64,000 bases of DNA from Spirometra erinaceieuropaei (taxonomy: Eukaryota > Platyhelminthes > Cestoda > Diphyllobothriidea > Diphyllobothriidae), in assembly GCA_902702965.1 (NCBI GenBank), contig CACRXP010000153.1:549408-613407 (forward strand), given 5' to 3'. Shown one piece after another: positions 14,427 through 63,073 of the stretch. Within the stretch, counting starts at the first letter, position 1, and each line of letters opens with the position of its first letter. The notes beneath the pieces were generated by a model, which saw only the letters and a list, made by a program, of their open reading frames with translations, was not told the origin of the DNA and ran no database searches. A program made the translations under genes and the position numbers.

Positions 14427-15458
14427 ATGAAATCGCATGTTGCTGTTTCCTTTATGTTCTTTTACGTGCAATGTTGCTTTGTTTTAACTAGTGAGACTAA
14501 CGTATATAATCGTCAATTACCATTTCAATTTATGTGTATCATGTGACATAGAAATACGTATGCATCTAATGAATTCCATTTCTTATATCGTAAATTATTA
14601 AATGTGAAAGCTTATATTCTCACGTGTTTAATTCTTAAATCGTTATTTTAAATTGCTAAACTCCCTATATTTTTCGCACTGATTGTTTGTGGCTGGACGT
14701 TCGCGAAACAAGGGGGTGTTAATCAGTGCAAAAGCCGTTTTTTTTAAAGATACATATATAATATTTTGACTGCGGCAGTTTCGGTAACCGATTTAATCAT
14801 TAGGCACGCCAAAATGTCCTTGGAAGGATGGCAAAATTATCCTCGGTGACGTCGCAAAATTCTTTGAACGACATGCACTTCGCCTCCGTTTTGAGGACAC
14901 ATTACTAATTGGAGAAAAACACACAGACTTCAAGCTAATAATCAACCGAACATCCTCACGTTTTGAATGCACATTCTGGCGAGACATAGCGCCAGCAAAC
15001 TACATGCAGTTTACATGCATATCTCGGATTCGAACTACAAAAATTAACATAGAGCAACAAGTAAGACATACATCGATGAGTGTATGTGCAAATATTTTAC
15101 ACAGTTTTCCCACATTTATATCGCACTCATAAAACTGCATTTCTTTTTTTAATAGATTCAAATTTGGAATATATTTTATAAACTCTGGGGTAAAGCTCAA
15201 CGTGTATCCTTCAATCTAACTGGCCTTGCATTAAAGGCAATTGTCGATTTCACTTACTGGCAAAGGGAAAATTACTTGGCAAACTTAATTCGAATGTCCT
15301 CGATCGATCTTTGTGGCGTATTTACAAAGGTTGCAATATGCCCTTACATATCCACCAATGTCGATCTGTTAAATCTACTAGGTATGAATGCCAAGGAGTT
15401 CTATTTGTATCTACAACGAGCCATTTTTGATACTCGGTCCAGAGACTGCCTTCAGTGA
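14427..15458 (+). CDS. Three-exon secreted cysteine protein, family member 1 (intact)
   Basis: Exons are 14427-14490, 14804-15060 and 15156-15458, with introns A|GTGAGA...TAG (313 nt) and CAA|GTAAGA...TTTAATAG (95 nt), phases 1 and 0. The joined frame is 207 codons plus TGA without interruption. Residues 1-15 form a signal-peptide-like segment (MKSHVAVSFMFFYV) followed by Cys-Cys at 16-17. The mature part has cysteines at 26 (KCPW), 77 (FECTF), 93 (FTCIS), 160 (DLCG), 169 (ICPY) and 205 (RDCLQ), consistent with three disulfides. N-glycosylation sequons lie at N69 and N127. No known domain is recognised. The product is predicted to be secreted; its role is unknown. A sister pseudogene follows 0.9 kb downstream in the same orientation. 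Its intact frame and splice sites argue that it is live. Confidence 0.78.
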
Positions 15459-16364
15459 CACTGTGCAGCATACTAAATCAAAACCCACGAAAACGAAATT
15501 TTCGCTGTTACAACGAACCAACGCTGTTTTTAATTTATACGCCACCGTCTGTATGATCTTCCTTTCAATCAAATTATTTAAATTTGCTACGTACCTTATT
15601 TAGGCAACTGGAATTTCAGTAGGCTGTGTACAAAATTATGATCATTGTGAGTAAATTGTTAGGGTTGTTTTTGACAAATACGCATAACAAGAATTTCATA
15701 AGTGTTTTCGATTGGGGTGGATGCACCAGAAAATCATACTTCATTTTAACATGCCGGGATTTTGTTATTACTAGCATTTTGTACTTCTTAACGTTAAATT
15801 GGGGTAGTCAATCGATTTTTTTTTCCTAACACACGAGTAAAGTCTCCGTAACGTCTTCGAAAGCGACTGACTTAAAGACCTGGGAATACCGGCACCATTA
15901 CTGTGAAACACATTGTCCCAGTATTGCACAGGACATTATTTATTTTTCCAATGGGGTTGGCGAAATGTCTATAAATATGATCCTAGATAGCACGGTATTT
16001 TTTATAAATTGTAGTCGCGGCCAAGACTCAATCAGCCAGGAAAGTGATGGAGAAGGCACAGGAATGTACTTAGTTCACAAACAAGTGGTCACTATTTCGG
16101 TTTAGGTGCTTGCCGCCACCTTAATCTGTAAAAACAGTCAATTTGTACTTGTTCAACTATTTGTACCGTTTGAATACTAATATTATTTGTACCGAAGTTT
16201 TAAACTGACGATGACCCATGATTATATGTCGGTGTACTTATAGACCCCTGACGTCTTCGGATATACTTTAACACGGTTTATTGCATTTCCATGCGTAAAA
16301 TAATTATTTGGAGTGATAAATCAATAATAGAAAACAAAGATCTTGCAAATCAACCACGATCTGC
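15459..16364. other. Spacer between family members 1 and 2
   Basis: Presumed 3' untranslated region of member 1, then AT-rich DNA. No AATAAA was seen close to the stop; short frames at 15388-15829 have no motif. Confidence 0.45.
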
Positions 16365-17327
16365 ATCCCATAGCGATCTGCGCTTCACTTGAAACGGTTA
16401 TTTGCAGAATGTTGTTTCTATATAAATGGTAAGGCTATGCTTCTTTACTGGCATTGACCTTTACATTCTATGTATATAATGGAAGACAGGATTGTGCGCA
16501 TCCTTAATGAATTCCACTTCTTTCCTCTTGTACATTGATACAGCAAACAGTTTGCAGGTTGTTGCACTGTTAATGAGTACGTCTGCTGTTTGCTAATCGA
16601 TAAACATTTTGCAATGACATTTGTCATAATTCCATAAAGCGCTTCATTACTAGAAATACCAAAATATCCTCAAAATGACGTCGGCATTAGCCTCCGCGAA
16701 GTCGCGGAATACATCATACGACAATTGTTTCACCTCCGTTTTGAAGGCACACATGTGATTGGGGAAAACGCGTACGGATGTCAAAATAATAATAAATCGA
16801 ACATCCTCATTTTTCGACTGCACTTTCTTGAGAGACATATCACCTGCAAGTTATGTGCAATACATATGCTTAACTCTAATTCCTAAATTTAGGGTTCATA
16901 TATTGCGATAGGTAAGGCATATATAAAGTATGGATACTTAATGTGTCAGCAATGCTTAAGACAAATTGTTTGCCGGTATATTTCACTCAGATCCTCATTA
17001 ACGGCACATAATTTTTGAAAAGTAGATACAACCTTGGAACGATTACGATAACCAGTGCAGTAACCCCGGAAATGTTCCGTTCAGTCTACGTGACTAAGCA
17101 TTAGAGGCAACGACGAATTTACTTATAGGAAAGACGAAAACCGCTCACCAAATATGAATTGACTGTCCTTACTCGATATTTGCAGGGTATTTGCAAAAGG
17201 CATAATTCGCCCTTATGCATCCACCAATAGCGTTATATTAGATTTGTTAAGAATGAATGTCAGGGAATTCTATGCGTCTCTTGAACGAGCTATTTTGGAT
17301 GGTGAGACCACAGAGTGTCATCAGTGA
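16365..17327 (+). pseudogene. Secreted cysteine protein family member 2 (pseudogene)
   Basis: All three exons are recognisable: 16365-16428 (64 nt), 16654-16911 (258 nt) and 17026-17327 (302 nt). Exon 1 has lost its ATG (now ATC), has TAG as codon 3, but keeps AECCFYIN and a GTAAGG donor. Exon 2 starts IPKYPQ (Cys26 changed to Tyr), continues REVAEYIIRQL, then shifts frame near 16785 and resumes in FFDCTFLRDISPASYVQY, ending at a TAG next to a GTAAGG donor. Exon 3 has one-base indels and an in-frame TGA but preserves LLDICRVFAKG, RPYASTN and the ending TECHQ. An AATAAA lies at 17382. Certainly a dead paralogue of member 1; exon sizes stay within one base of the intact gene. Confidence 0.8.
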
Positions 17328-17381
17328 CTTTTAGCATGACAAAATAGCGAAAAATATGAAGTAGAGACTTTTTCATTGTTG

Positions 17382-17387
17382 AATAAA
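17382..17387 (+). promoter_or_regulatory. Polyadenylation signal AATAAA
   Basis: Lies 55 nt after the TGA of family member 2, a position comparable to the signals after the members at 24.6, 44.3 and 62.4 kb. Confidence 0.5.
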
Positions 17388-17389
17388 TG

Positions 17390-18039
17390 TGATTTCCGCT
17401 AAACATTCACCTTCCATTTGAATATGTTTCAAAAAGATTTATATGTCTTCATTTGAGACTGGACAGCATAATCAAGGATTCGGTCTTTAAGAGTGAATGT
17501 TTGGAATCAAAGAAATGTTTGGAAAATAGTGGGACCAGCTGACCACTGTTCGTTATTGCACGCCTAGTATTTATGTACCATTGTTCCCCTGGTCAGGATG
17601 CCTTCGTGGGCGTTAAGCATTATATGTTTCCAATCAGAGCAACGTCGGCCTTTTGGGTGCCTTTGCGAACGACTGAGATAGCGCCTAAATAAAAGGTCTA
17701 AGATATTGAACCCTTTAAAATAGCTCAGATTGGCTCAATAAGCACATTGTACGAATTATGCTTGTAATAACGGGGACTGGTTGGAGAGCGCTCACTTACT
17801 TCTTCACCGATACAACAATGTAGTCGCAATAAAGGAGAAAACTCGTGAAATAATATCTTTCCTATGCACGTTTCTCAAAATGCTAGGCACTTGCTAGAAC
17901 GTTTCTGGAAGTCCCTGTCGTGGAGTTAGCTAAAGTATAAAAGAGGTCTATCCCTCTGTTTTGTTCCCTGTATGAAGACGGTGACATTTTTCGCAAATGG
18001 CACCTACGCTCCATCTTCGTGTTTGGCGACGTTGCAATA
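17390..18039. other. Non-coding stretch
   Basis: No frame or repeat recognised before the interspersed repeat at 18.04 kb. Confidence 0.4.
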
Positions 18040-18450
18040 TTGCCGTCGAACTTTGCAAACATTTGAGCAAGCAGGAAACATCCTACAAAATGTAGGTTAG
18101 GAAAAACAAGGGATTTCTTACAAAAAGGCTGTCGGACAGGAAAACATGTTGCGGCGAGCCGGGCATATGTTTGTTTATAGAAAAAGGACTTGGTTTTTAT
18201 GATGCGAAAATGTTAGATTATGCAGCAAGAAACCGCAAAATGATTAGGCATACCATCAGTTCACGTGAACGTAATAGGAACCGTTTATCATAGACCAGCT
18301 GCTAAACCGTCTTTGTGAGCATGGTGTAATAAGCGTTTGTTGATACATAGTACTTGGTTGCCTTAAAGTAGGTTGTTCCACCACAGATTATGACCCAATT
18401 GCCTTTTTTCGCATATAGTGTTCAGTCCGCTATGGTGCTTATCTTGAAAG
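18040..18450 (+). repeat. About 400-bp interspersed repeat, copy 1
   Basis: Matches the reverse complement of 41210-41600 over several blocks: GCAAGCAGGAAACATCC, GGAAAAACAAGGGATTTCTT, GTGAGCATGGTGTAATAAGCG, GATACATAGTACTTGG and AGGTTGTTCCACCACA. There is no long open frame. Probably a non-autonomous element or an element end. Confidence 0.65.
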
Positions 18451-18619
18451 CCATCTCCTTCTACTTAATATTGTATTGTGTTTCGAAAATAAATACTACG
18501 AGCTCCGTTATGCATGGAGGTCTACTATCTTTAATACCCAAGAGTTAACATTGCATCTATAAATTGTTCCAAATTGTGAACTGTACCATTTACAGTGCGT
18601 CCCCGATTTCAGGAAACGT

Positions 18620-21305: not shown

Positions 21306-21309
21306 GCAT

Positions 21310-22883: not shown

Positions 22884-23152
22884 TCCTATCTGTCCAATCG
22901 ATATCAGGCTGTGATGGTTGGTAAACGCTACGCAGTACTTCACTCAATCACAAGTGGTGTTCTTTAAGGCACAGTTCCGTGTCTGTTATCCCTCCTTCTG
23001 TACACCAATTATATTTCGTTGGAAGTCAGAAATTCGCAAACTTCGATCTATGACGATGAACTCAAGTGTGTTTACTCATTTTCTAAGGACATCGCGAATG
23101 TTTATGTTGAAAAAATTAATGCCAATATACCACGCTCAAGCAGATGGAATTC
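22884..23152 (+). repeat. RT-core duplication, left copy
   Basis: Starts TCCTATCTGTCCAATCGATA and matches 23479-23747 almost base for base at an offset of about 595. It includes the GVL-GTVP motif and the YDDELKCVYS segment. Confidence 0.85.
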
Positions 23153-23478: not shown

Positions 23479-23747
23479 TCCTATCTATCCAATCGATATC
23501 AGAAAGATATGATTGGTAATAGCTACGCAATACTTCACTCGATCACAAGTGGTGTTCTTCAAGGCACGGTTCCGGGTCTGTTATGCCTCCTTCTTTACAC
23601 CAATTATATTTCGTTGGAAGTCGGAAATTCGCAAACTTCGATCTATGACGATGAACTCAAGTGCGTTTACTCATATTCTAAGGACACCGCGAATGTTTAT
23701 GTTGAAAAAATTAATGCCGATATACCACGCTTAAGCAGACGGAGTTC
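23479..23747 (+). repeat. RT-core duplication, right copy
   Basis: Second copy of the LINE RT core. After it, TTTCTTTAGTTTAATGAACG repeats the block at about 23440-23460, so a longer tandem duplication lost the thumb region in its second unit. Confidence 0.85.
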
Positions 23748-23860
23748 TGCTATCCTTTCTTTAGTTTAATGAACGCCTGCGACCGTAATAAAATCGAAAA
23801 TCTCCAGGGACGTTTTACCCGGAAACTGTTCTCTCACGCTTCGTTCAATATTTATAATAC

Positions 23861-24651: not shown

Positions 24652-25345
24652 TTACTGATGACAGTAAGCGGACGGCGCATTCTGAAACCCTCCTTTAAAC
24701 ACCACATTGAAATCTCCGGCACTCATTTTCACCAGGTCCAGTAAGACAGTGTGAACAGATACTTTAGAGCATGTTGACGCATTGTTGCATGCATTGCATT
24801 AGTCAAGGGAAGACAGTCGAATCAAATTTGGCTGACTGTTGCCGTTTTTCCTGTAGGTAATATCAACAGTTGCGTTCAATGCTAGGCCCCTCAGTTTAAA
24901 CGCAAAATATTTCATGAAACTATGGATGAGCCAAATGATTCCATGTTGACATTCAATAATAAAAATGGTAATGAGTATTTCAGAAATGTCCCCAGATTTG
25001 CACACAAAGATGGCAAATACACAAGCACAGAACACTGCGCGTAACGTGTGCTGTTATAGTTAGCAATTATTCTTCTACCCCATCCTGCCTTTTTTATTAT
25101 CCGAAGTCGAGTTTCAGGAATCGGAGAAATGCATGTGAACTGAAAGTATTCTGCAAAGGATACGCCTCCTAAAAACGTACAATCAAAGACGAATGACGTC
25201 TGTTTGATTATCATTCTGAGATTCAAACTCCATTCTTCCTGTCTTATCACTTTGTCAAAGCTGAAGTGATCCGCTTGTCGCACCAAGTATTCAGTAACAT
25301 CGCTGAGGATGATTTCATAGTCACTTCGTGAACATTTGGGTATTT
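24652..25345 (-). pseudogene. Secreted cysteine protein family member 3 (pseudogene)
   Basis: On the minus strand, exon 2 is 25345-25089 (257 nt) and exon 3 is 24954-24652 (303 nt), exactly the sizes of the intact gene. Exon 2 is fully open: IPKCSRSDYEIILSDV, TEYLVRQADHFSFDKV, FVFDCTFLGG and FQFTCISPIPE. Exon 3 keeps LRGLALNATVDITY and NLIRLSSLD, then has a TAA, then continues CNACNN to SAYCHQ and TAA. The splice sites are damaged: acceptor 1 reads CGG, donor 2 reads AAG|GCAGGA (a GC donor) and acceptor 2 reads ATT. No signal exon was found upstream. Cysteines 26, 77, 93, 160 and 205 persist. Exon 2 alone would look like a plausible 147-aa protein if read through into the intron. Confidence 0.78.
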
Positions 25346-25978
25346 CCGAAAACAAAACTGCCTGCGGAGTTACTATTGGTTAGCAAAAAGGACTCAAGAC
25401 CGTACTTGACGTGAACAATGTATCCTATAGGTGGCAAAGCGGGAGTTGCGCACGAAGGATACTTCGGTCAGATAGCTTTCGAAAACTGCTGTTCGTGCGC
25501 GGTTTGATTTTTGTGTTGCAAGAAGGAATTTTTTCAATCGAGTCTCCTCACTGAAATCGACTGTTCTTCATCAAAAATTGGATTATAATACGCGTTTCTG
25601 ACTACGATCCTCCAGCTAGCTCCATCGATACTCTTATCGTTCGATCAGAACAAAATTCAGCAAAAACGGTCTTTCTGTCGAAAATCTCGGCTTGTCTATA
25701 GGCTTACCATCTAATACACCGTCTCCAATTGCTCACCGAAGTTAGGAGCAACATCTACGAAAAAGTTGCGTCGATATTTCTACACTACTTGCTGTGCTGC
25801 TTAAATTCAGACAACTCGAGTTGTGTTACTTTACCAAACATAGGTTTACCTGAAAAAGAAGCGTTCCTGGAAATTTTCAGTGTACCCAGCATAAGTGTAG
25901 ACAATGTCTACAGTTGTGCCTTAGGAAAAGGCTTGTTATTCCTGCAGATTTTTCCGTTTTCCATATGTCCACTACATA
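25346..25978. other. Spacer before LINE A
   Basis: No signal-peptide exon for member 3 was found here on the minus strand. The frame at 25729-26019 (+) overlaps the LINE start and lacks motifs. Confidence 0.4.
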
Positions 25979-26939: not shown

Positions 26940-27190
26940 ATTCTCTCACAACTATTCCGAATCAAATACACCAACCGCGGCTTTTTTCAGCCGGACTACA
27001 CACCGTCTGAGAGAATAAAACGTTACAATTAGTTTTGGAACCGAGAACAAGGTTGCAGAATGGCGAGACGGATCTCGTGATCTACAGCGATCAGAAAGTT
27101 CAGGGCCCTCCCTTATCCGTTGCACCGAACCGGTCCGGATGAGGGCACAATAGGTTCCTTAAATGAGATCTCAAGCGGCACCATAATCAA

Positions 27191-27925
27191 ATGCCCCAAA
27201 AGTATGAAACTAACATTGTTTACACCAACGTACAGAGTATACTGTCCAAGTTATACAAACTGCAGATCCACATCTGCGAACTTTCCTTTTGCGTTGTCTC
27301 TTTGACAGAATCCTGGCTGTCTGAAAACGTGGATGACCGTGAATTAATGCTACCAGGATTTCACTTGTTTCGAAGAGACAGGAGGGAGCGTCAGGGAGGA
27401 GGGGTCGTCACGTAAGTAAAACACGGCCTGCTCGTATCAGAAAAAAACAGAACAGTTTGCATGCAGCGCCGAGACTATCTGTCTCACTATAAGGGTACCA
27501 GGATCACATAGCCTTGCAGTTCTGGCCATCTATCGACCACGGAGCAGTAACCCCGAGGCTGACGCTCGTCTGTTAGAGGAGCTAGGACGATTTGCCCTCT
27601 GGCCTGACGTCCTAATCATGGGCGACATTAATGCACCGCTCATTGACTGAAGTTCACTATACGCGCGTGGCCCAGAACTAGCTTTCGACCGACGCTTCTT
27701 GGACATGGCACTGAGGTCATTTCTCATCCAGCACGTCCTGTTTCCATCGAGGGTGCGTGAGGGGCAGCAGTCAAACTACTTTGACCTCGAGCTCACAAAA
27801 TGGATGGGCAGAATAGATGAGGTGCAATGTCTGACTCGTCTAGGTCGAAGCCATCAAGTCGTACTTCAATGGGACAATTCAATCTTTTCCGTGCCTGAAC
27901 AGCCCACCAAAATTAGCAGAAATAT
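27191..27925 (+). pseudogene. LINE A apurinic-type endonuclease remnant
   Basis: The frame at 27191-27415 encodes NIVYTNVQSILSKLYKL, SLTESWLSENVDD, FRRDRRERQGGGVV, matching the N-terminal endonuclease blocks (N-R-S catalytic Asn region, T/E-TWL with the metal-binding Glu, and DR---GGGV). The frame then shifts; later parts (LAIYRPRSSNPEAD, VLIMGDINAPLID) correspond to the YRPP and GDFN-P-I-W blocks with the catalytic Asp. A stop replaces the Trp after LID. The enzyme would nick target DNA to prime reverse transcription; this copy cannot. Confidence 0.8.
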
Positions 27926-28489
27926 TTGACGTGGGGACTTCGATCAAATGAAGGCCGAAATCAACAATACGGACTGGGAATTAGCATTTTCCGGAAAGTA
28001 GCGGTGGATTGGAAATTGTTCAGTGAATTATTGCATGTTATCTTGACAAACCACTGCCCGTTCTCACGGAAGGGTCTAAACAATCGACCCCGGTGGCTGA
28101 CCCTGGCGTTAGAACTGGTGGTAAATAAAAAGCGGAGATTGTGGTAGAAGTCTCTTACCGATGGGAATCCTGTATCCATAAACGCATACAAACCGCAGAA
28201 GAACTCATTCAAGCGACTTCCTTTCAGGACACGGCACACATTTGAAAAAGACATACTTAATCGTGCTGTGGAAAATCCGAAATTATTCTACAGCTACATA
28301 AGAAGCAGCACATGTAACAGAGATCCAATCCCCCTCCTGAAGACAAGCGGAGACGTAGAGATTAGTGAGTATGGAGTAAAACTGAGCAGTTTTTCACAAT
28401 TTTTCAAATTCATCTTTACTAGTGAAAGTGCATTTCCTCCTCCCGATTAGGACTTCGATGAGGGTCCAAAAATTGAGTCTGTATCTATT

Positions 28490-29040
28490 AATGACGCGAC
28501 GGTTCGCAAAGGGCTAGCGATGCTGACTGAGTCGAAATCACCAGGTTCACACGATATACCACCTAAGTTGCTGAAGCAGCTCGCTGCTGAACTAGCCAGA
28601 CCAGTGTCTACGCTTTTTCAAGCCTCATTCGAAGCCGACTGCTTGCCCACCGACTGGAAATCTGCGCAGATCACTGCATAAAGGAGGCTGCAAGGCATCT
28701 CCAAACAATTGTAGGCCAATTAGCCTCATTTCATCTGCTGCAAACTCATGGAAAAAATAATCAAGCGAAAGCTAATGCGCTTCCTAGAGCAGCATAATTT
28801 ATTATCTAATGCGCAGCATGGGTTTCGTAGTGGCAGGTCTTGCGTGACTAACTTGCTCAACTGTTTGGAACGATGGACTCGGTCAGTTTATGAAGGCAAT
28901 GCACTGCATGTAGTCTATGTCGACCTTAAAAAGGCATTTGACAGTGTCCCACATCAGCGACTCCTCCACAAACTTAGCCCAACAGGCGTTAGGGGTAACC
29001 TCTTAAAATGGATTCAAAGATTTCTATTTGTCCATTTTCA
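28490..29040 (+). pseudogene. LINE A reverse transcriptase, N-terminal part
   Basis: Reads AMLTESKSPGSHDIPPKLLK (RT 0 region), then DCLPTDWKSAQITA, a stop and a shift, and from 28748 KIIKRKLMRFLEQHNLLSNAQHGFRSGRSC followed by VVYVDLKKAFDSVPHQRLL with the first catalytic Asp. QHGFR-G-S and D-KAFD are standard non-LTR RT motifs. The frame continues to 29095 but homology ends near 29040 after GNLLKWIQRFL. Confidence 0.85.
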
Positions 29041-29099
29041 ACGCCATTCCGACTGCGTATTCTGTGCTGCGTTTTTGCTACAACCGGAGAGTTAGGCGA

Positions 29100-31914: not shown

Positions 31915-32078
31915 CGACATGGCCCGTGGCTCAATGGTAGAGCGTTCAACTCCATGACCAAAGATCCCGGGTTCGAATCTCAAGTGATCCACACTTGGGG
32001 TTGGGTATGACTGGCTGATGACGGCTAATAAGCCAGAAATGGCCATTCCGGTCTCCCTTGTCTTTGTCGGTATCATCT
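31915..32078 (+). mobile_element. tRNA-derived SINE
   Basis: It begins GGCCCGTGGCTCAATGGTAG (A box) and has GGGTTCGAATCTC (B box) about 38 bp on, the internal pol III promoter of a tRNA gene. The body GCTGATGACGGCTAATAAGC, CAGAAATGGCCATTCC and TCTCCCTTGTCTTTGTCGGT is shared with the minus-strand SINE at 63.6-63.9 kb. Homology ends at TTGTCGGTA; no poly(A) tail is evident. Confidence 0.8.
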
Positions 32079-32309: not shown

Positions 32310-32612
32310 TTCCTGCTGGCACTCTATGGACTTGGCATTTACCATCTCGTGTTGCAGAAGGTCGTTTAAGTCACTGTTAGGAATGCTTAGCATCTTTGAT
32401 TAGTAGGGGTTGACGCGTTCATATGAACTTTCAGAAGAATTTGTGTATACACTGCAGAGGTTCAGAGAGCAAATTCCAATCACATTTGGCGGACTGTTAT
32501 CCACTTTCCAGTAAGTTAAATCAACAATTGCCTTCAGTGCTAAATTGTGTAACATGAATGTGAAATATCCGACGCCATTTGGTGGATCTTTTCGCATTTC
32601 TGTTTGTAATGT
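32310..32612 (-). pseudogene. Secreted cysteine protein family member 4 (exon 3 only)
   Basis: On the minus strand, a 303-nt unit starts right after an AG acceptor (AACAACAG) and ends where the family stop should be. It reads TLQTEMRK, YFTFMLHNLALKAIVDLTYW, SLNLCSVYTN and SIECQQ. A TAA interrupts it after VNPY, and the terminal stop codon is GAA. The closest relative is member 5, which begins SLQSEK and also ends SIECQQ. No exon 2 or exon 1 was found; the position where intron 2 and exon 2 should lie holds a transposon-like coding fragment. AATAAA-like sequence occurs farther downstream near 32.19 kb (minus). Confidence 0.75.
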
Positions 32613-32829: not shown

Positions 32830-33650
32830 AGTTGCAGCACCCATGGGAGCAGCGACGGTGACTTACGCAGGGGTTTTTAGTGCCGGTTGACTTGCGTAGC
32901 ATCTACCTACACTCTCTCCTCCCTCGACCTAGCCCGGTGTCAAGACAGAGTCAAGAAGACCGGAGACGAGGGAGGCCGCAGGTGGATGGCTCGGACGGAT
33001 CCTCACCTTGGCGTCCACCACACCCCCTGGTCCACACAACAAATGACCAGGATTTCAACCAACACAACAGAGACTTGGAGGCTGGCACGGCCGAAGCCGC
33101 ACCTGGGCGTGCCGCCAACACCTGGCTCGGATCCCACACTGTGATGGGAGTGTCATAAAGGCCACATTAAAAAGGAGCCATAGCAGCCTGAATCTCAGAC
33201 CGCCTACAGTCAAGGAGGATGTCCAAGTTACCCCGTCAGTTTACAACCTTCCAAGCCACGGCTTTTAGCACTCCGTGATAGCTTCAAGCGCGTCAGATTG
33301 TTTATAGTGAGAGGGAAGTGCACTGAGTCGACGTCCTCACTCTCCCTTCCCACTCCCACACCCCAGCCGCTGTCCGAGCCGGTCAGCAGACTGGAATGGG
33401 GAGTGGGCGCGGTGGCTGTCATGGTCGACTGACCATAACTGCGCGCGCCACGGCACGACCTGGACCCCCATACCCATAACACCAGGATTTCACACATCGG
33501 GGGTTGAACGGCGTGTCTCTCACTTGCGTGAGAGTGCCGCCGAAGGTGCTGTTTCAGCCCGTTTCCAGCCCACCGCTCCGCCACTCCACACAACACACAC
33601 ACAACGCGACGAAATGCGTGAACCGAGACCGGGCGTCAATAAGCAAACTT
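32830..33650 (-). repeat. GC-rich tail/neighbour of the RTE element
   Basis: Base composition rises sharply at about 32.83 kb and stays high to 35.4 kb. All six frames are partly open because of composition, giving overlapping spurious ORFs on both strands. It is probably the 3' tail of the RTE/zinc-finger element or a second GC-rich element fused to it. No motif supports a protein here. Confidence 0.45.
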
Positions 33651-33651
33651 C

Positions 33652-35420
33652 CTATCCACGACGCTTGACGTTTCGGGATAATCTCAGACTCGAGTCGTTC
33701 GCACAGCCGGAGCCGCATGGGGACCGAGTCGAGATGTGGACTGCCCACTTGCGTGGGAGGTGACAGTTGGATGCATGATGTGTGTGACTGTTGATTTCTG
33801 GTGGGGTGATGATGGTGGTGGTGGTGGAGGGGGTACGGAGTGAGTGAATGTGTGGTGTGACCGGCGGTTGTCTACCGAAGGCCGTCGTGGATGCGCATGT
33901 GGCGGAATAGGCCCATGCGATGCGTGAATGTGAGAGGGCAGTGTGGGGAGTTGAGAAGAGCTTGGTGGGTATAGGTGGGTGCTCCAGGCACTGGTTCGCC
34001 AGTCTCTGACCGACCAGGCCGATGCGCGAGGTGAATGTGCGTGGACAGTGTGGGCATGAGAAGTCGGCGGTGTCAGTGTCAGCCACAGAGGAGGCGGTGG
34101 TGGTGCAGACGGATGGAGCGAGGGCGGGGGTGTGCACGGTTGATGTGTTGGATGTGGTGGGTGTGTCGAGAGTGCGGTGAAGGCCGCTCTTGTGGATGCG
34201 CATGTGGCCGAAAAGGCCCATGCGAAGCCTGAAGGTTCGAGGGCAGTGTGGGCAGTGGAGGCGAGTGCGGCGGGTGAAGGTTGGTGCTTCAGGCAGCGGT
34301 TCGTCAGTCTCTGTGCGATGGATTCGCAAGTGACCGACCAGGCCGATGTGTTAGGTGAAGGTGCGGTCACAGTGAGGGCAGGTTTAGTCCAGATCCTCAT
34401 CGCTAGATTTGAAGCAGGTGGTGATAGTGTCGGCTGTTGCGCGCGGCACAGTCGCCTGAGCGGCCGTCGTTGGAGCAGTGGGCGAGGAGGAGGAGGAGGA
34501 GGAGGAGATGGCGTGGAAGGAAGTGGTGGGTCAGAAGAATTTTTAGAGATAGTTGGCGTCAGAGTGGAGGAGGAGGAAGAGGCGGGCGGGGGTACGATGG
34601 TTGGTGCAGTTCGAGAGGCGCAGTTAATCCGAAGATGTCCAAAAAGTCAGATTCGAGCCCGGAATGTCCGTCGACATCGAGGACACGTTGGAAGCGGTTG
34701 TGCGGCGGCGTTGCGTACTGGGCTTAGTTGTGATTTGCGGGCCTTCCGTTTCGCTTTGGCGGCAGCGATGCGGTTGGCTTCGTAGATCGCAGCGCCTTTC
34801 TTCACTGTCCTCCTCCAGGTCAGTCGATCGAGTGCTAGCTCCTTCCAGTTGCTGGGGTTGATTTGCAGGCGTTTCAGGGAGGACTTCAGGGTATCCCTGC
34901 AACGGCGAATCCGGCCTCCTGGACGGCGAGAACCCGGCGCGACGTCTCCGTAGAAGAGTCGTTTGGGTAGTCGCTCGTCGTCCATTCGCACCAAGTGGCC
35001 GCTCCAGCGCAGCTGCAGTTGCCTTAGTATGGCGTAGATGCTGAGGATTCCCGTCTGTTCCAGCACATCAGTGTCGGAGATTCGATCGCGCAAGTTCAGC
35101 CTCAGGATGCGACGAAGACAATTGAAGTGGAACTGATTCAGACTGCGTGCCTGCTTTGCGTACACCGTCCAAGTCTCCGCTCCATACAGTAGTGTCGGCA
35201 GGATGACGGCCCCGTAAATCTTCAGCTTCGTGCTCAGTTGGAGACCATGACGATTCCAAACTGTGCTTTGGAGGTGACCGAAGACTTGACTGGCTTTTAA
35301 AATCCTGTTGGCGATGCTTACCCCTTTGAGTTTCTCCAGGAATTGTGCTGACGTAGAGACCGTGGTGTGTGACCCAGCGGTCACGAACTTGAGACGACCG
35401 AAGAGTCACTTAGCCAGTCC
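33652..35420 (-). pseudogene. RTE-type RT C-terminus with C2H2 zinc-finger tail
   Basis: From 35384 down, the minus strand reads the post-RT domain of an RTE-like retrotransposon: [79 protein letters not shown], then [19 protein letters not shown]. It continues into a CCHH array: [13 protein letters not shown] (34.69 kb, then a stop and LFGHLRINC), TCPHCDRTFT-stop-HIGLVGHLRIH (34.38 kb), HCPHCPRTFRLRMGLFGHMRIH (34.25 kb), SCPHCPRTFTSRIGLVG (34.07 kb) and, after a frameshift, NSPHCPLTFTHRMGLFRHMRIH (33.94 kb, first Cys lost). Catalytic RT motifs lie outside or are missing. A Ser-rich linker comes from a GAG repeat. This RT-plus-finger arrangement is one I associate with tapeworms. Dead by stops and frameshifts. 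Confidence 0.85.
34484..34508. repeat. (GAG)n microsatellite
   Basis: A run of GAG units; on the minus strand it encodes a poly-Ser stretch in the linker between zinc fingers 1 and 2 of the RTE element. Confidence 0.85.
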
Positions 35421-42807: not shown

Positions 42808-44280
42808 ATGAAATTACTAGTGGCAATTCCTTTCTTGTTTTACTCTGCAGAATGCTGCTTATTTAATAGAGGTACATTTTCTTTTTCGTACGTCTGTTAA
42901 ATCTGCTGGCCTCTAGTAAATGAAATGGATTGCAGTACGAAAAATGCCTGAGAATTTTAATTGCATTTTTATGTAGTTTTGTCCAAGAAAGCGCATATAT
43001 GCTTCCTACAAATAGCCTAACGTCTTTGGTATGAGCAAGTCGTTGACGTACAAATAGCTTTTCTTAGAAAATCTTTTTATTACAACAGTATATCGTTTCA
43101 TGATAAACGAACTCGATGGTCACATTTCCGTTAAATAGTTTGATACATCTTATTAACAAAATAGTGTTAAACAGACTGCGTAGTTTTTCTAAAAGCTGTA
43201 GACATTTACAAAATCATTGTATTTCACTTGTCATATTACGATTTCCTGTAAACATCGCTCGTCATGCATATTAATTTTGCAGCTATTTAAAGGAATGAAA
43301 ATAACCAAATTTAGGTGGTTTCTCTGAAAAAAGGTAACATTGTTAAACTACATACTTCAAAAATTCGCTGATGTGTGCAGCGGACGCCTTAGGCTTTAGA
43401 CAAGGAGCCCATGCAAGTCCCTCGATCCGGTGAGCTCTTCGTTTTCCTCATACCCCATTTCGGATGTCTACTACTGCATCCATACGACGACCATCGACTG
43501 ATAACGTTTGTTGTACAAACAGCATTGGCATGCTATCATCTTCAATTATGTGCTTACAAATAATTTTAAAGGTTATCTTACTGAACGTAAATAATGACGA
43601 GATTGTTTATGCTTTCAGCTAAAACAAGATGCCCGCGTTCTAGCTATGGCTTTAGTCTCAGTGAAGTGGCTGCACACTTGGTTGGACAAGCAGATTACCG
43701 TCACTTTGAGAAAATATTAGAAAATCAATACTGGCGTTACTACATCACAATTACAGCCCATAAGGAACGCTTAACTTTTGACTGCACATTCTTACGGGAC
43801 GAATGGACAGACAGATACTGGCAATACTCATGCATGGCTCCGATTTCTAACGCCAAAGTTCATGTAGCAAGACAGGTAACATAAAGATAGAAGTTTAATT
43901 GTCGACACGTTAGCAGTATGTTAGTCGTGCAATTTCTTCTACTTTTTATAATTCATGCGCACTTCAAACACCAACAGAGCCTACAATCCGAAAAGCTGAA
44001 AATTCCACGCTATAGTGCCGGATATTCCGAGTTTATGTTAGACAGTTTAGCTCTGAATGCAACTGTCGATTTTACTTACTGGAAAGTGGATAATCAACAG
44101 CCAAATATGATTCGACTGTCCTCTCTGAAGCTCTGCAATGCAAGTATAAACGTTTCGGAGAGGCCATATGGACCCATCAACAAATTTTTATTAAAATTTC
44201 CACGTATGCATGCCACTATTTTTAATGTCTTTCTGCAGGAAGAAATTTTGATTGGCCAGTCCATAGAGTGCCAGCAGTAA
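42808..44280 (+). CDS. Three-exon secreted cysteine protein, family member 5 (intact)
   Basis: Exons are 42808-42871 (64 nt), 43619-43875 (257 nt) and 43978-44280 (303 nt). Intron 1 is G|GTACAT...CTTTCAG (747 nt) and intron 2 is CAG|GTAACA...CAACAG (102 nt), in phases 1 and 0. The frame is uninterrupted over 207 codons plus TAA. Exon 1 encodes a signal peptide (MKLLVAIPFLFYSAECC). The mature part has Cys at 26 (TRCPR), 77 (FDCTF), 93 (YSCMA), 160 (KLCNA) and 205 (IECQQ); position 169, Cys in members 1 and 8, is Arg here. Sequons lie at N134, N161 and N165. A TATA promoter precedes it and AATAAA follows 116 nt after the stop. A predicted secreted or surface-released protein of unknown function. 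This is the best-supported gene in the window. Confidence 0.82.
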
Positions 44281-50190: not shown

Positions 50191-50390
50191 TGGACCAAGG
50201 TATGTGGACAAACAGCCCTGTGCTTTGGTTGTTTCAAAGCGATATACTATAAGCGGATATGCGCTGTCAGGCGACGCGTGTCAGCCCACATGTTCACGTG
50301 CGACCAATGGTGGTGCGGCAGTTTGACTGCCTCCGTGGTTGGTTACTTAAACCGCTATAGTATATTAGTAATGAATCTGCCTTGGTCTGA
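50191..50390. repeat. Small inverted-repeat element upstream of family member 6
   Basis: The ends are GGACCAAGG (50192-50200) and CCTTGGTCT (50380-50388). Inner inverted blocks are ATATACTATAAGCGG (50242-50256) and CCGCTATAGTATAT (50352-50365). About 200 bp, with no frame. It ends 8-10 bp before the ATG of the 50.4-kb family copy, so it either replaced or contains that copy's promoter. Confidence 0.5.
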
Positions 50391-50397
50391 CAAATAA

Positions 50398-51348
50398 ATG
50401 AATCCTCTAATCGTTGTTCTCATCTTGTTTCATTGTGCAGAATGCTGTTTTTTCAAAAAGGATGAGTCATTTTGAAGAACTACATATTTTTTCAACCCAT
50501 AAGAACTATAACATAGAAGATTGAGAAAATAATTTGGCTTTGCTATATCCTAACTATACTGATCGTTTACTGTTTAGCGATTGCATATTAGTGATTCCTG
50601 AAGCATTATTTTAACAAAAGTCGTTTACCTCATAATGTTCACTTATTAAATGTTTTTGTCAAAATTTCACAGTCATTTATATCCTCAGGAATACCGAAAT
50701 GTCCACGAAATCACGAAGATATCATTCCCGATGAAGTCGCTGAATATCTGGCACGTCTGGCCTACCGTCATGGCTTTGAAAAAATAATTTCCCTGGCCGA
50801 TAATTCACAGTTAAAACTCAAAGTGCTCATACTTTAGACATCCCTACATTTCGACTGCACATTCTTAAGGGATGTAGCACCCGCAAAATACCTACGGTAC
50901 ACATGCCGATCGCAATTTCCTGATGCCGAAATACATATCAAACATCAAGTAAGATAGTGAAGATGAGATGTATTCGTATTTTATAACTACTTTCTAGTAA
51001 TTGGCACAACATAATAATAATTATGAATTGCATGATTTTTCTTAGGAACGACCCCAGAAAATAGCTACAAACCTCTGGAGAGATATCGGATGTTTTAACT
51101 TCATTCTACCCGGCTTGTATTTAAAGGCGACCCTCGATATCACTTATTGGAAAAGGGAATTTGACTCGCTAAATAGGATTCGACTGTCCTCTGTTGAGAT
51201 TTGCAGTTCTCATACAAGTGCTCATAAATGCACTTATGAACCCATCAACTCCAGTTTATTAGGCTTGTTAGATAAGTGGTCTCCTGACGTTTAAGTATTG
51301 TTGAGCTGGGGCTTTTTGGATGTTCACTACAAAGAATGCCTTCAGTAA
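50398..51348 (+). pseudogene. Secreted cysteine protein family member 6 (pseudogene)
   Basis: Exons are 50398-50461 (64 nt), 50689-50948 (260 nt) and 51046-51348 (303 nt). Exon 1 is intact (MNPLIVVLILFHCAECCFFKK), but its donor is G|ATGAGT instead of GTGAGT. Exon 2 follows ATCCTCAG and reads IPKCPRNHEDIIPDEVAEYL, then a TAG, then LHFDCTFLRDVAPAKYLRYT, with a GTAAGA donor. Exon 3 follows TTTTTCTTAG and reads IGCFNFILPGLYLKATLDIT, SVEICSSHTS and KCTYEPIN, has a TAA after SPDV, and ends KECLQ-TAA. Cys26, 77, 93, 160, 169 and 205 are all still present. The two nonsense codons and the donor change are single-base-type lesions, so inactivation looks recent relative to members 2 and 7. Confidence 0.82.
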
Positions 51349-55800: not shown

Positions 55801-55803
55801 CAT

Positions 55804-56740
55804 TCATTGCTGACATTCTTTGTAGTGAGCATCCAGCAGACCCCTTTTCAGAAATGAGTAATATTCAGTAGGAGGCGCCTTTAGAAATCCCGACAATATG
55901 GTATCCACGCCTTTTTACAGCACGTGCAGTAACATTTGCAGATGTAGAGCAAAACCGACGGGAGGACAGTCCAATCATATTCGTCGTGTTGGTGTCCTTT
56001 CCCCGATAAGTTATATCGAGACTGGCCTATAATGTCGTCGGAAAGATCAACCAAGTATCCGATTGTATACCGCAGGTTATAAATCATTTGTAATCGTTGT
56101 TCCTAATATAAAACCAAGAAAATTTTTATAATGTATGTGTGTGCTTTATACCAAGTACTATTAAGATAAAATATAACAGGAAAGCGTTTTATGCTTGCTA
56201 TCTTGCCTGCATTCCGTTATGTAATTTGGCTTAAGGAAATACTGATCGGCATATGTATTGTCGGTATTTTGCGGGTGCTGCGTCCCAAAAGAATGTGCAA
56301 TCAAAATGCAGGGATGTCCGGTCTACGATAGCTTTGATTTTTAAACGCCAATTAACTTGAAGAAAAACTTTTGCAAAACTTAAACTTCAAGCCCTGTGTA
56401 CCAAATAACCAGCGACTTCGTCGAGGGTAATGACGTAGCCATTTCATGGACATTTGTGTATTTCTTGGAGTAGAGATGTTCGAGGAATTAATAAAATGAA
56501 AAAGAACAAATGATTTCTTTCGAGTTTGTGACTGCCACTGAAATGCTAGTCACTCAGTCAGTTCACATTAAACACATTGTCTTGTAATAAAATGTGCAAA
56601 TTCAAGTCATCCCTAAAGCCTCCTATACTATGTCTTTTATGGATTAATGCATTGTGTAAATGTGAAGTGCTTATTACTGTATATAAAAAACAGGTTTCAG
56701 AGCAATACGGCAAAATGCGAAACATTATCAAATGATTCAT
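55804..56740 (-). pseudogene. Secreted cysteine protein family member 7 (pseudogene)
   Basis: On the minus strand, exon 1 is 56740-56677 (64 nt), exon 2 is 56463-56207 (257 nt) and exon 3 is 56102-55804 (299 nt). Exon 1 encodes MNHLIMFRILPYCSETCFLYT; its donor has lost the initial G (ACAG|TAATAA). Exon 2 has three stops (TGA, TGA, TAA) but retains HKCP, TLDEVAGYLVHRA, LHFDCTFFWDAAPAKYRQY and a CAG|GCAAGA donor, a GC-AG type intron end. Exon 3 starts after ATATTAG, carries net deletions and shifts, and keeps DITYRGKD, MIGLSSRRFC and the ending DAHYKECQQ-TGA. It is closest to member 6 (shared LHFDCTF, APAKY, HYKEC). Confidence 0.78.
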
Positions 56741-56759
56741 TCCTTTGCCCGACCAACGT

Positions 56760-59700
56760 GTATTTCCAATTAATGTTATTGCAGCCTAAGTAACATACAA
56801 GGCGATTAGCTAAACTGCCGTACGATCATTGACCAGGCGAGTTAACAGGGGTGCCGGTCATGAAAAGTCTGCTAATAGAACTCTGCCCCTCTGTGTTCTA
56901 AAGTCCACTATGAAATTACTGCAAATGATTACAAACACTGCTCTCACGGCTTCTGACAGTCAGTTAAATGGCCATATTTTATTTGCGATTTTTATAAGAG
57001 GCAAACAACAGCCTGTTCGACGCATTAGAAACTGCACTTCATTTTCACATAAACTACGCAGTTTATAATAAAAAGCAACTGCTGATATCTTCTACGGAAT
57101 GGAAAAAAATAACCCACCTTATGTGCGTTGATTGTCCTCCTAGGAGCTGGCCCACACAGGTCCAAGAAATTTAAGCAGTTCCCAAGAACTCGTCGACCTC
57201 GATTTATTGGACACAGCCAATACGGGCGAGAGCTACAACTACGTATTTCTCAAACGAGGCTACCTATAGGTCCTGTCCACAGATAATCATCAGTAGTTGT
57301 TCGCATATAAAAATCTGTGCAGTTTTAAAAATCAGATATTAATTTTTTCGGTAAAACAAACGTATGTTTATTTAAACATTGGTTTTGTAATCATCCAACT
57401 TAATCGAAAAAGCCACATTTTGTTTTGGACATATTTTCCTGTATTTTGAATGGTTGCCTTTGCTGCTACTGGCTGTTAGCAGATGATGAAATAACGCCGA
57501 AAAGATAACAGTCATTGACAAGTAATTCAAGGAGTTTCTGCTGAACGGTAAAACGAAGCATGGGTATGCCACTACTTTTGGGGAATGAAATAGGCGTAAA
57601 AATGTCTTCTCGGTTCTGTCTATTTCAAATGTTTGCGTTTTGAGTTGGAAACTGTTAGACGCCTTGCAAAAGCCACAAACAATTTCAGACGACGTTCTGC
57701 GCCCGCGGATTCTGGAGATCCAGCAGGGAGGTCAACGTACCGGTGTTACCTGACCGTTCACGGATATGGAATGTTGTCAAATCTTGTCTTTCAATAAGGG
57801 TGTAGGCCATCAAAAACACAAGGAATTGAAGGTGGTGGGATATTTATGTGCAGTAGTGGCATATAAGGTTAGAATCCGCAGAACCCATCGATATAGACCA
57901 TCGAAGTTCTCTGAGTTGAAATGTGTCAACAAGGATTAATTAAAGAGAAGTGTAAGGTATACGGGGCTCCAATGTCATTGATTGTAAATTATAAACCGAA
58001 ACCGTACACAGATAAGACAAATGCATGATCAGCTGTGCAAAATTCTTGTCCTGACAGTGCTGACCGATTTTGAATAACGATATGTGATCGCCAACCCAAG
58101 AGGCCTATTAGCCTGACGCTTTGGATTATATCAATTGTTTTTGAGTACGACAGAGGCACAAGGGGCGAATTATGCAAAGAACAGAGTTGTCACACCCCAT
58201 ACACCAGCTATAATTGACAACTCCCCCATTTGTAATGGCCGAGTAGTATTTTATGATACGATTCTCTGCTGGTCTGCGCTGGAGTCGTTAATAAGTGAAA
58301 TGGGTAACAATCGGGAGAGGGCACCCAAAAAAATACTGCCGGCCAAAGCAGCGATCCTATCGCAACTGTCCTAAGCTATGCAGCCATTGACTGAGCCGCA
58401 CACTGGCGACTGCGTTAGCTCCCGACCTCTGGAAATAATGGTAAAAATTGATAATCCAAGCTCTCGGTCAACGGCCATTGTAGTGCAATTGTCCGTAGGT
58501 AAGCTACTATAGAATAATCCGCATAGGGACCACTGCGGTCGCTTGTCAGCAGTGGAAGCTTATATTAAGGTTGTTTAACGTAGAGTGGGTCTAAGGCGAT
58601 CTTTTCTCAACTTTCCTAAGGTATGCAAGGGTAGATTAAGCCGCAACCGCACTACTGCTGTCACTATTCAGTCGTGTAAGCGTGGCTCAAGGTTAACTTA
58701 CTACGGCTCGGTCTGCAGCGGTTGCATCTCAACTGTTGGAGACTTCGATAACCTAAGTGAGGCAACATGGGCACCGCAGATCAGATAACATTGAGGTTGC
58801 ATGAAACAACAAATATGTAGAGCCGTAACCTACTCAAATAGGCATAGCATGTATTATGTCTAGGCAACGGATATTTGGGTGCCCTCTTCCGATTGTTACC
58901 GTGAAATTTAATCACCGTTGTAGATGTCTACCATTATCATTGCTCGCCAATCTGACTCACTGTCGCTGGAGCCGTCAGTTGTCCGGGCCATTCTGCGGGA
59001 CAACGTACCTTATTATGACAAAATCTCTTGAAGGCAATCTTGGAATACTAAACTTTCAAAACACCATATCGTGCAAAATCAATCTCTATTGACAGAAATA
59101 ATGTTCGACTCTATGAAATGGTTATTGGTTGTTGAATCTGTTTAACTCATCATCCGTGTTGATAATATTTGCTCATGTTTGCACGTGTACGAAAAAGCGC
59201 TCATGCCTTTTGATCGCGCCAGGCTAGTGGACGCTTCGTCTTGTTACAAGTCCTTGCTCATTTATATGTACACTAATTTCCTTCGTGGTCTATGTTTCTG
59301 TCCTTATTTACTAAGGAGTGTTACTGTCGACCGATGCTCGTCAGTGAAGTCGCAAATCAACGAAAAAACTGTTGATCAGGTACTACAAGAAAGGATGTAA
59401 AATATGCCGCATTAAACAATGATAGATTCCTTAGGTTGCTTAACAACGCCAGCTTGTCTCGACAGACTAATTTGACACGAGCTCTTTTAGGATCCACGTA
59501 TTCTAGCTCAAATTATACATTAATTTTAAGCGCTTTCATTACTTTGGCTTGCTTCCGTGAACTGATTTGATAACCGTAACCACCAACCTTGCCCATTGGG
59601 AAGAAAAACGTATTTCCATCAACTTTCTGTAGCGAGACTGAAAAGCCCATTTCGATGAATTTACTGCACGTTTGTGCGATGGTCCACTCATAAATAAAAA

Positions 59701-60460
59701 AGACAGACAAACATGTGTTTTTTAAGAAAATCTACCTCACAAGTGTCTTACAATTATTAGGGGTAAATTAGACGACGACAAAATGTGAGGTAAAAGATGC
59801 AATAATTTGAAAAACATGCGCGCCCGCTAAGGTAGCAAATCAGCTCTCAGGCCTTGCATTTTGGTCGATTTTCAATCAATAGAATTTTAAAGGAGATTAC
59901 GTGAAATGAATTGATCAAAATACAACCTAGCGACAACTTTTCGAGTTGTTCAAAGGTTTTTTGGGACACGTCAGACATCCAATAACCGCTGTGGTTTGAC
60001 ACCAGTGCAGGCATGTTATTACAGGCGGTCATTGACCGATCTCAGATAAACATGGGACTAATTGATGAGATTTGCAATGTCAAGTGTGATGATGTCCGAA
60101 TCATGTAAGAACCACTTAAGATCAACAATTGATATGCATGAATTTTTCCGTCTGATTTTCAGTTATGTTAAAAATGTAAATGTCTTATAATAAAAACAAA
60201 CAGAATCTATGCTGTCATTAAATACAGTCACTAAATGCATTCGAATAAATAAGTGGTTAACAGTTATTTGTAAAAATGACCAAAAAGTGTGCAACATGGT
60301 TTAACGATTACGGTCTTTGCAGGCGAAAAAAGTGTATTCAAGAGCCAGGATGAATTCACACCTGATATATTTTGGAAACGATGTTATGCGATGACCAGTA
60401 CAATAATTCTACTTAAGTAATTCAGAGTTTTAGCGGACATCTTTTAAAGCCGGACGTTCA
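56760..60460. other. Non-coding stretch
   Basis: No supported gene. A fragment at about 58105-58140 (minus) resembles the end of the hammerhead-like PLE tail (CGTCAGGCTAATAGG). Minus frames at 59513-59710 and 59847-60032 are protein-like but short and unlinked. A short block at 59816-59870 resembles 47948-48000. Confidence 0.4.
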
Positions 60461-60464
60461 TACC

Positions 60465-61130
60465 TGCAGCGTAGGTGGCTTATGTCATGAAATATTAACC
60501 AAAATTCAGAAATGTGTTTATATTTCTAAAATAATAATCAAGTAGTTTTGCAAAACTAATCAATATCCAGCATAATTCTATAATAAATCAGCTGCTCCAT
60601 GATGCAGGCTTTCAACCGAACCTATTTTTCCTGAAATATATGACCCTTTTGTATTTTTCTCTTAATACCGTCGATAAATGCGTAGTTTTCCGCACACAGA
60701 AAATATACGGCTTGTAGTTTGCGAAACGTGAATGCACGGATAACGTCAGGTCGGGCTGAAAATTATTCATGAGCAGGAAATATTTTAAAAACTGAGTTAT
60801 ATCCTTCCTTCGATTGTAGAATTAAAAGAATACTTAAGTTTCTACTGAATGAAAAATTGAATATTTTATGTGGGTTTTTCAAGAAATGTAATTGAATATT
60901 TAAAGGTATTAACAAACATTAAGACAAACGTATGCCAATTAAACAGTCATTTTTGCACAGCATATTTTTGCATGCTGACGGAAGGAAGTCCATTAGAAAA
61001 CCGACATCCTGAAGTTATCGATGTATTATAGAAATATGCTGGATCGTGAATAGTCCTACAACCTTACTTAATTAATCATTTCGAAAAGAAAACGCATCTC
61101 GAGATTTCGGTTGACATTTCATGAATAAGC
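60465..61130. mobile_element. Foldback (long inverted repeat) element, copy C
   Basis: The left arm begins GTGGCTTATGTCATGAAATA and includes AATATCCAGCATAATTCTATAATAA; the right arm, inverted, reads GAGCTTATTCATGAAATGTC and GATCCAGCATATTTCTATAATA. Arms are about 170-190 bp and the whole element about 660 bp, shorter than copies A and B because of a smaller centre. No transposase frame. Confidence 0.7.
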
Positions 61131-62340
61131 TCACTTTTGTACATTGATGTCAAAATATATGTTATTGCCATTCCGTGAATCTGTTTTGAGTGCATGTACT
61201 TGTACCAAGTAGTCTGCGATAAATCTCAAAAGAATGCCATTAAATTTTGAAACCCGCTAGTTACAAGGGCCAATTACTTATCGGACGGCATAAGTTCCTG
61301 ACATCTAATTCACACAGTGCTGAAAGCTTCATTAACTTTTTTCTGATGTATTAAGAACACAATTGAGAGGCATATTTTTCCTCACTGTATGTTCGTGCGC
61401 ACATAACTCTAAGTATATTTTTTGACCACATGCAAAAAATGTTCTCTCTTGTACTCATCCGTTATTAAATCACATCTTTAAATGCTAAAGATAAACCCCT
61501 TTCATTAGAAATCCCGATTAATTACGTCTATGGTTCATAGATCGCATTCATCACGCCACAGCCCATATCCTCGATCCTCGACGGAAGTTTAAGGTTTTTT
61601 ACTCGCTTCGCGTGACAAGAATATGTGCTAAGGAACGACATCGCTTTAAAGTTAAGCGAACTCAGTCTTGCTGACCTAAGAGATTGGCTTATCTAGAGTT
61701 TTGTCAACCCAAAAATGCACTTACTTGCATTTCCAAAAATTAGCTGGTCACCACGCAGATCATGGGCTCTTTGTGTGCATCCCATAAACATCAAACAACC
61801 CCGTCATATGCTTTCTTTTCACCATGTCATAATGACATTGCTGAATTCAATGTTTTCTAAGACTGAAAATTAGTTTATTTATATAGCCAAACTACTTACC
61901 ACACTAGATGCTTTCTGATGTTAGGAGGTATCGCTATGACTCAAGAAACAAATGACTGTCGACATGTGGTCTGCGCTGCATGCCTGAAAGAAAGATCTCA
62001 CAGGCTCGAAAGTAAGATACTTGTAACAAACAAACTAACACTACCTCTAAATTGCGATGATGTATGGGTAACATGGCCAGCTAGATCCCCAAATCACGTC
62101 CTGATTATGAAAATAATTCATGGCAAATAAGAACTCCACTGAGACCTTACTTTCTGGTCGGTCCACTCAAACAGTTTGATTGCATTCATGTAATGCGTAT
62201 TTACCTAAAACTAACTGCGAATTTAAGCGTAAAGACTGGACTTTTGAAAATTCCCCTCAATCCTTCAGCCCGCCAAAGCAATAGGCGCTGTGAGTTTAAA
62301 TAAAGCAATTATTAATAGAAATCTAAAAAAATTAAATCAA
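61131..62340. other. Non-coding stretch
   Basis: No gene recognised; a 70-codon frame at 61918-62130 has no motif. Confidence 0.4.
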
Positions 62341-62347
62341 AACCGCG

Positions 62348-62353
62348 TTTATT
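62348..62353 (-). promoter_or_regulatory. Polyadenylation signal AATAAA (minus)
   Basis: On the minus strand, 58 nt after the stop of family member 8. Confidence 0.55.
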
Positions 62354-62410
62354 CGTCTTCACTAGCAAATCCTCCATTTCGTGGTTTTTGGTGTTTCATT
62401 ATAGCTCCAG

Positions 62411-63073
62411 TCACTGGCGACAGTCTCTTTGCTGAACATCAAAAAGGCCTCTCTTGATATACGCATATAATTGTCTAGCATTCATTTTCATGTGGTTTAA
62501 TAATAAGGAGTCGGTGGACATATAAGGACATGTTGTATCCTGTGCCAATGTACCGCAGAGATCAAGCGAGGACAGTTGAATAAAATGTGGCGGGTGGTTT
62601 TCTTTATTCCAGTAGGTAAAATCAACAGTTGCTTTTAGCACTAGATTCTGCAGAACAACCGACAAATGTCCGAAGTCACTGCAGTGGTTATCAAAGTCAT
62701 TCCCATTTGCCTGCTAATTTAAAAGATACATACAGATTATGAAAGTCTGTGGGGCAAGCAACATGGGCAAGTTATCGCCGGCGAGTTTGACATATGATAT
62801 TTCATGTATATCTTACATTCTGCATTGCATAAACCACGGCTGTTAGAGGTTGACATAGGCACGTGAATTGCATATAGTTTGCAGGAGGTATGTCCCGGAA
62901 AAATGTGCAGCTGAAAATTAAAGATTTTTGATTGAATGTCATTTCGAAGTCTATACGAGCTGTTCCAATCAGTAGCATATCCTTAAAACTGTGGCGAAAC
63001 GCCTGTTGTACGAGGTATTTAGTGAGATTATGGAGAATAATGTAATCGCCATCCCAAGGACATTTTGGTATTC
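62411..63073 (-). CDS. Secreted cysteine protein family member 8 (exons 2 and 3 open)
   Basis: On the minus strand, exon 2 is 63073-62817 (257 nt) after an acceptor CCCTAG. It reads IPKCPWDGDYIILHNLTKYL, LIFSCTFFRDIPPANYMQFT and is followed by AAT|GTAAGA. Exon 3 is 62713-62411 (303 nt) after AAATTAG, open to its stop, with VLKATVDFTYWNKENHPPHF, SLDLCGTLAQD, TTCPYMSTD and the ending RDCRQ. Both match member 1 in exact length, and Cys26, 77, 93, 160, 169 and 205 are all present, with extra Cys at 95 and about 118. Introns have GT-AG ends. No convincing signal exon was found: a 64-nt exon-1-like remnant with ACG for ATG and an internal TAG may lie immediately upstream (63150-63087), leaving only 13 nt before exon 2. 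It may use another first exon or be newly dead. Confidence 0.68.

Follow-up and report, generated by a model that had tools for sequence, protein, structure and literature searches.

A 64,000-nucleotide stretch of the Spirometra erinaceieuropaei genome (contig C153, positions 549408 to 613407; here called the window) contains nine loci of an apparently undescribed gene family, and at least 244 such loci were found in the genome assembly. In a full gene, a leader exon that probably encodes a signal peptide is followed by two core exons, the first about 85 codons long and the second about 100. The product would be one secreted domain, usually of 184 to 192 amino acids and probably with two or three disulfides. 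Its fold would most likely run helix, strand meander, helix, giving a roll that is hydrophobic inside and resembles the tubular lipid-binding (TULIP) proteins. We suggest that this is a lineage-specific secreted family whose variants carry hydrophobic ligands, an explanation to which, taken as a whole, we give about an even chance.

Copy number and genomic arrangement

The assembly searched comprises 758.7 Mb in 1,932 contigs. In three exon searches, the best 150 of 370, 359, and 406 candidates, respectively, were scored, and 126, 127, and 136 of each 150 were free of stop codons. After exon pairing and removal of duplicates, at least 241 loci remained; three window copies missed by the searches bring this to at least 244. 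Because the searches recovered just six of the nine window copies, the true family size is probably larger than 244. The loci found lie on 30 contigs. Contigs C471, C153, C453, C634, and C681 together hold 140 of the 244, on both strands, at a density of one copy per 15 to 18 kb of occupied span. The last copy found on C153 lies at about 612 kb of 1,182 kb, so this array may end near the window. Both core exons were stop-free in 78 of the 94 loci that were paired in the first two exon searches. Chance is excluded, since many contigs show this exon pair with the same splice phases and lengths.

To our knowledge, a family of at least 244 loci would rank among the largest secreted families of any flatworm. 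If expressed, these loci would be a large addition to the known Spirometra secretome; one Spirometra gene set has 565 predicted excretory/secretory genes (PMC12249497, excerpt).

Gene structure, conservation, and selection

Members 1 and 5 of the window are complete genes on the forward strand. Their leader exons were placed by nhmmer and a splice model, and their exons 2 and 3 by tblastn and the splice model. Member 1 has its leader at 14427 to 14490, exon 2 at 14804 to 15060, and exon 3, including the stop codon, at 15156 to 15458; the corresponding exons of member 5 lie at 42808 to 42871, 43619 to 43875, and 43978 to 44280, again with the stop codon. Both have GT-AG splice sites, a phase 1 first intron, and a phase 0 second intron. 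A first-pass annotation of the window had assigned 207 amino acids and six cysteines to complete copies. The length was right for both genes after splicing. All six cysteines (Cys26, 77, 93, 160, 169, and 205) are present in member 1, whereas member 5 lacks Cys169.

Member 8, on the reverse strand, has open exons 2 (62817 to 63073) and 3 (62411 to 62713, including the stop codon), both found by tblastn. No leader exon for it was found within the 64-kb window (nhmmer, E ≤ 1e-3). However, its leader may sit past position 64000, because the first introns of the related copies L017 and L019 are 1,241 and 1,066 nt long. Member 1 is 31% identical to member 5 and 44% identical to member 8, and the synonymous divergence (dS) of the three pairs among these members is 0.83 to 1.12. 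Therefore, the window is a mixture of old subfamilies rather than a fresh tandem array.

Gene models were built from the window plus 48 fetched stretches, 49 sequences in total. Their 65 exon 3 matches yielded 43 core models that were complete, including 41 unique ones; the other 22 matches were set aside because they were partial or broken or because a splice site could not be resolved. Since high-scoring places supplied most of the models, open copies are overrepresented. Exon 2 is 257 to 260 nt long (278 nt in three models), exon 3 is 300 nt (297 nt in two, 357 nt in one), and the GT-AG intron between them is 83 to 142 nt. Upstream, 37 of the 43 models have a leader exon that makes an open join (the leader of L042+5565 is implausible), and a Cys-Cys pair is present in 34 of these 37 leaders. 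Four of the remaining six models have a leader match but no open join, and two have no leader match.

Among the 41 unique cores, cysteine is kept at the six columns in 40, 41, 41, 38, 35, and 41 sequences. With 35 of 41 at the least conserved column, the earlier label of a six-cysteine family is approximate. Invariant alignment positions are P5, F54, C56, C72, L114, T126, W128, and C191. The median ratio of nonsynonymous to synonymous divergence (dN/dS, NG86) was 0.40 over 231 nonindependent pairs with dS of 0.02 to 1, and no pair exceeded 1; the remainder of the 820 pairs was excluded, 586 because dS was ≥1 or undefined and 3 because it was ≤0.02. In 56 close pairs, the ratio was 0.34 for exon 2 and 0.39 for exon 3, and no 20-column stretch of the alignment exceeded 0.51. 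These values indicate purifying selection, not neutral drift, in the sampled open copies; the neutral ratios that the first-pass annotation had named as evidence against its own view were not seen. Pervasive positive selection was not seen either in the NG86 pairs or in the 20-column stretches (site models were not run).

The join from leader to exon 2 also occurs in two independently made database gene models, P0003 and P0004. Secretion, as proposed in the first-pass annotation, is therefore probable. Compared by eye, P0004, from S. erinaceieuropaei, is letter-identical to copy L047-8852 on C634 from the leader through exon 2 into the start of exon 3, which makes it very probable that the genome belongs to the S. 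erinaceieuropaei complex. Three other database models of the family, P0001, P0002, and P0005, look incomplete or truncated, or chimeric or fused, so published gene sets may undercount the family. Our guess is that any such undercount would perhaps come from repeat masking ahead of annotation.

Duplication and decay

Members 5 and 6 lie in a block that recurs on C634, where it is collinear over 9.7 kb and 94.3% identical. Members 1 and 2 lie in another block, which recurs elsewhere on C153 (88 to 94% identity). The relative of member 6 in the C634 block is open, whereas member 6 itself is not; the two copies of the member-2 type on C153 each have two TGA stops. Segmental duplication and unequal decay are thus seen directly, in keeping with the expansion and decay first proposed. 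We suggest that segmental duplication in long arrays would make the copies and that purifying selection would keep many of them while others decay.

All eight loci listed in the first-pass annotation were found again by tblastn with exon 2 and exon 3 peptides, which also placed the decayed exons given here. The additional ninth locus is a strongly decayed exon 3 at 57030 to 57293 (forward strand, E = 5.7e-7). In-frame stops or frame breaks occur in this exon and in members 2, 3, 4, 6, and 7. On the forward strand, member 2 has a frame break in exon 2 (16656 to 16908) and in-frame stops in exon 3 (17067 to 17324), and member 6 has a single in-frame stop in each of exon 2 (50688 to 50948) and exon 3 (51046 to 51345). 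On the reverse strand, member 3 has an open exon 2 (25089 to 25346) and a single stop in exon 3 (24655 to 24909), member 4 consists of exon 3 alone with a single stop (32313 to 32612), and member 7 has several stops in exon 2 (56207 to 56464) and a frame break in exon 3 (55807 to 56026). Leader exons had been claimed for members 1, 2, 5, 6, and 7. At E ≤ 1e-3, nhmmer found those of members 1 and 5 and matches for members 2 (16379 to 16432, forward) and 6 (50397 to 50462, forward) but none for member 7.

Separately assembled haplotypes could inflate the count, leaving two- or threefold fewer copies per haploid set. Spirometra has been reported as triploid, and the Spiro_Aus1 assembly comprises three nine-chromosome sets (PMC12249497, excerpt), so haplotype divergence could mimic the C634 block, which is collinear across its 9.7 kb. 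However, it cannot mimic the block of members 1 and 2, since both versions lie on one contig, as do member 1 and its close copy L002 (dS 0.086). Moreover, dS is ≤0.02 in just 3 of the 820 pairs of unique cores, and the 758.7-Mb assembly is close to the 729 Mb that we calculated for one representative set from percentages in an excerpt of PMC12249497. We consider such inflation improbable. Still further from likely, in our judgment, is that the copies belong to a mobile element, as cargo or as a component, and that their spread is unrelated to secretion into a host. Hundreds of copies in a repeat-rich region would fit that idea, as would the open frames at 27167 to 29095 and 34647 to 35405, between the family copies, which by their motifs look like endonuclease/reverse transcriptase remnants of retrotransposons of the long interspersed nuclear element type. 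However, 140 of the 244 loci are confined to 5 of 1,932 contigs, the two-copy block on C634 is a segmental duplication, and introns, leader exons, and frames are maintained under purifying selection.

A shared upstream element

The element GTTGGTTACT, with at most two mismatches, occurs in 23 of 35 unique upstream regions, 21 times at −58 to −65 from the ATG. The element was picked after the sequences had been inspected, and in the control, single-base shuffling, it was found in a mean of 3.4 and a maximum of 9 regions. The 12 regions without it at this stringency include the member-1 type. The upstream consensus shows CCAAT-like and TAT-A blocks, and TATA-like words upstream of the copies were not convincing (11 observed versus 8.3 expected). 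Member 6, which is outside the family-wide count, has the element at 50338 to 50347 on the forward strand, read from the sequence 60 bases 5′ of its leader ATG. The element suggests common regulation of the copies.

Fold and function

We infer the signal peptide function, the fold, and the disulfides; putative lipid binding and a host role are assumed. In a structural comparison with the predicted model, TULIP members took the first rows, with 127 to 160 residues aligned in the first seven. The predicted shape weakly resembles extracellular fat-carrying proteins. A TULIP core comprises six antiparallel elements (a helix, four strands, and a helix) with a total of 175 residues or more (PMC5507252, excerpt). 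The predicted model is of moderate quality. Scores of hhalign against TULIP profiles lay within the shuffled range (five domains, two small profiles). The fold similarity of five TULIP examples was shown by structure and not by PSI-BLAST, but profile-profile searches did reach other TULIPs (PMC5507252, excerpt), so the hhalign result weighs somewhat against a TULIP-like fold.

Another possibility is that the family is real and secreted but has a different alpha+beta fold (cystatin-like, NTF2-like, or new), with products that bind proteins, for example as protease inhibitors or immune decoys; this seems to us doubtful. A cystatin-like fold would have a helix packed against a sheet across the entire domain. 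Such alternative folds aligned over fewer residues than the TULIP members did, and their model ranges mostly stop short of the last helix. We give somewhat more credence, still short of an even chance, to secreted proteins that serve the worm itself (in eggshell, gland, lipid supply, or antimicrobial roles) rather than host manipulation. The sequence indicates no host target, as this idea would have it; however, large lineage-specific amplification and loss are often seen in host-facing families.

If the TULIP-like fold is right, an extracellular carrier of hydrophobic ligands is the simplest function. The worm would secrete many sequence variants, and each would carry a hydrophobic ligand (a lipid of the host, of the worm itself, or of bacteria) in extracellular fluid, either for uptake or for masking. 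Cestodes rely on lipid-binding proteins to capture lipids that they cannot make (PMC10982386, excerpt), and innate immunity is touched by TULIP proteins such as Der p 7 and LBP (PMC5507252, excerpt). Therefore, nutrition and immune masking are both possible. The first-pass idea that the proteins may be host-interface effectors is compatible with this putative carrier function. The first-pass interpretation as a whole is partly supported, in its points on secretion, duplication, decay, and the lack of a known domain. More tentatively, the parasite may have turned the TULIP fold into a secreted arsenal of several hundred variants, in long arrays, many of them behind a similar promoter and most of them absent from annotated proteomes, that would sequester or deliver diverse host or microbial lipids and whose repertoire would shift by duplication and decay; this we think rather unlikely. 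The family opens testable questions of plerocercoid expression, lipid binding, and co-expression or switching of copies.

Other features of the window

The stretch from 32 to 36 kb is G+C rich (51 to 54%, versus about 39% nearby) and includes overlapping reverse-strand frames with C2H2 zinc-finger-like words at 33600 to 34700. The repeat search, which covered repeats of at least 60 nt, found a direct duplication of 269 nt (22884 to 23152 and 23479 to 23747; 91% identical, spacing 595 nt). At the window end, an 88-nt repeat (63601 to 63688 and 63913 to 64000; 91%) encloses about 225 bases, and between its copies a 75-nt arm (63730 to 63804) is 95% complementary to 31998 to 32072. This arrangement, upstream of member 8 exon 2, looks like an element of the short interspersed nuclear element type. 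An Rfam search of the window gave no matches.

Comparison with known families

The first-pass annotation recognized no known domain, and our searches agree. No Pfam model, LBP_BPI_CETP (PF01273) included, passed its curated cutoff in three window members. In 13 family proteins, the best Pfam match, at E = 0.033, was between one protein and an unrelated family, and no family was listed for more than one protein. DUF1091 (PF06477) was rejected: it matched exon 3 of member 8 at E = 0.13 (13.2 bits versus a cutoff of 25), in one of the three window members and none of the 13 proteins. PDB sequences gave one meaningless match (E = 0.91) and, in a second search, none. A PF01273 profile search of the genome returned nothing, but its controls were also silent. 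Member 1 alone found nothing at E ≤ 1 in a protein database of 5.8 billion entries, where alignment queries gave two and four matches, five relatives in total, none with a named function. These relatives are from Spirometra or Sparganum only, in one database of uncertain flatworm proteome coverage and by a search that relies on shared short words, which fits the lineage specificity proposed earlier. Literature searches of open-licence full texts, judged by titles and the beginnings of abstracts, brought up nothing recognizable as a description of this family, of its arrays, or of any TULIP-like family in tapeworms.

Like the TULIP proteins (Der p 7/Der f 7, Takeout/JHBP, BPI/LBP/CETP, and SPLUNC), these proteins are probably secreted and have a helix-sheet-helix order in the predicted model, and Der p 7 is likewise a single domain of about 185 amino acids. 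Unlike them, they showed no sequence or profile similarity to TULIPs, probably have different disulfides, and exist in hundreds of copies with putative lipid binding. Cestode antigen B/HLBP and FABP are also tapeworm multigene families, with lipid carriage in common if the fold assignment is right. Antigen B is short and helical, hence unlike this domain. Compared by description only, it also differs in its count of 0 in S. erinaceieuropaei (Table 3, PMC4265353, excerpt). Sparganum proliferum has five expanded predicted-secreted families, OG0000083, OG0003096, OG0010117, OG0011363, and OG0011373, the first of which includes P-ISF, a cysteine-rich glycoprotein from plerocercoid excretory/secretory products (PMC8166898, excerpt). 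Again by description only, those families resemble ours in belonging to the same tapeworm lineage, in being predicted to be secreted, in lineage expansion, and in their little-known function.
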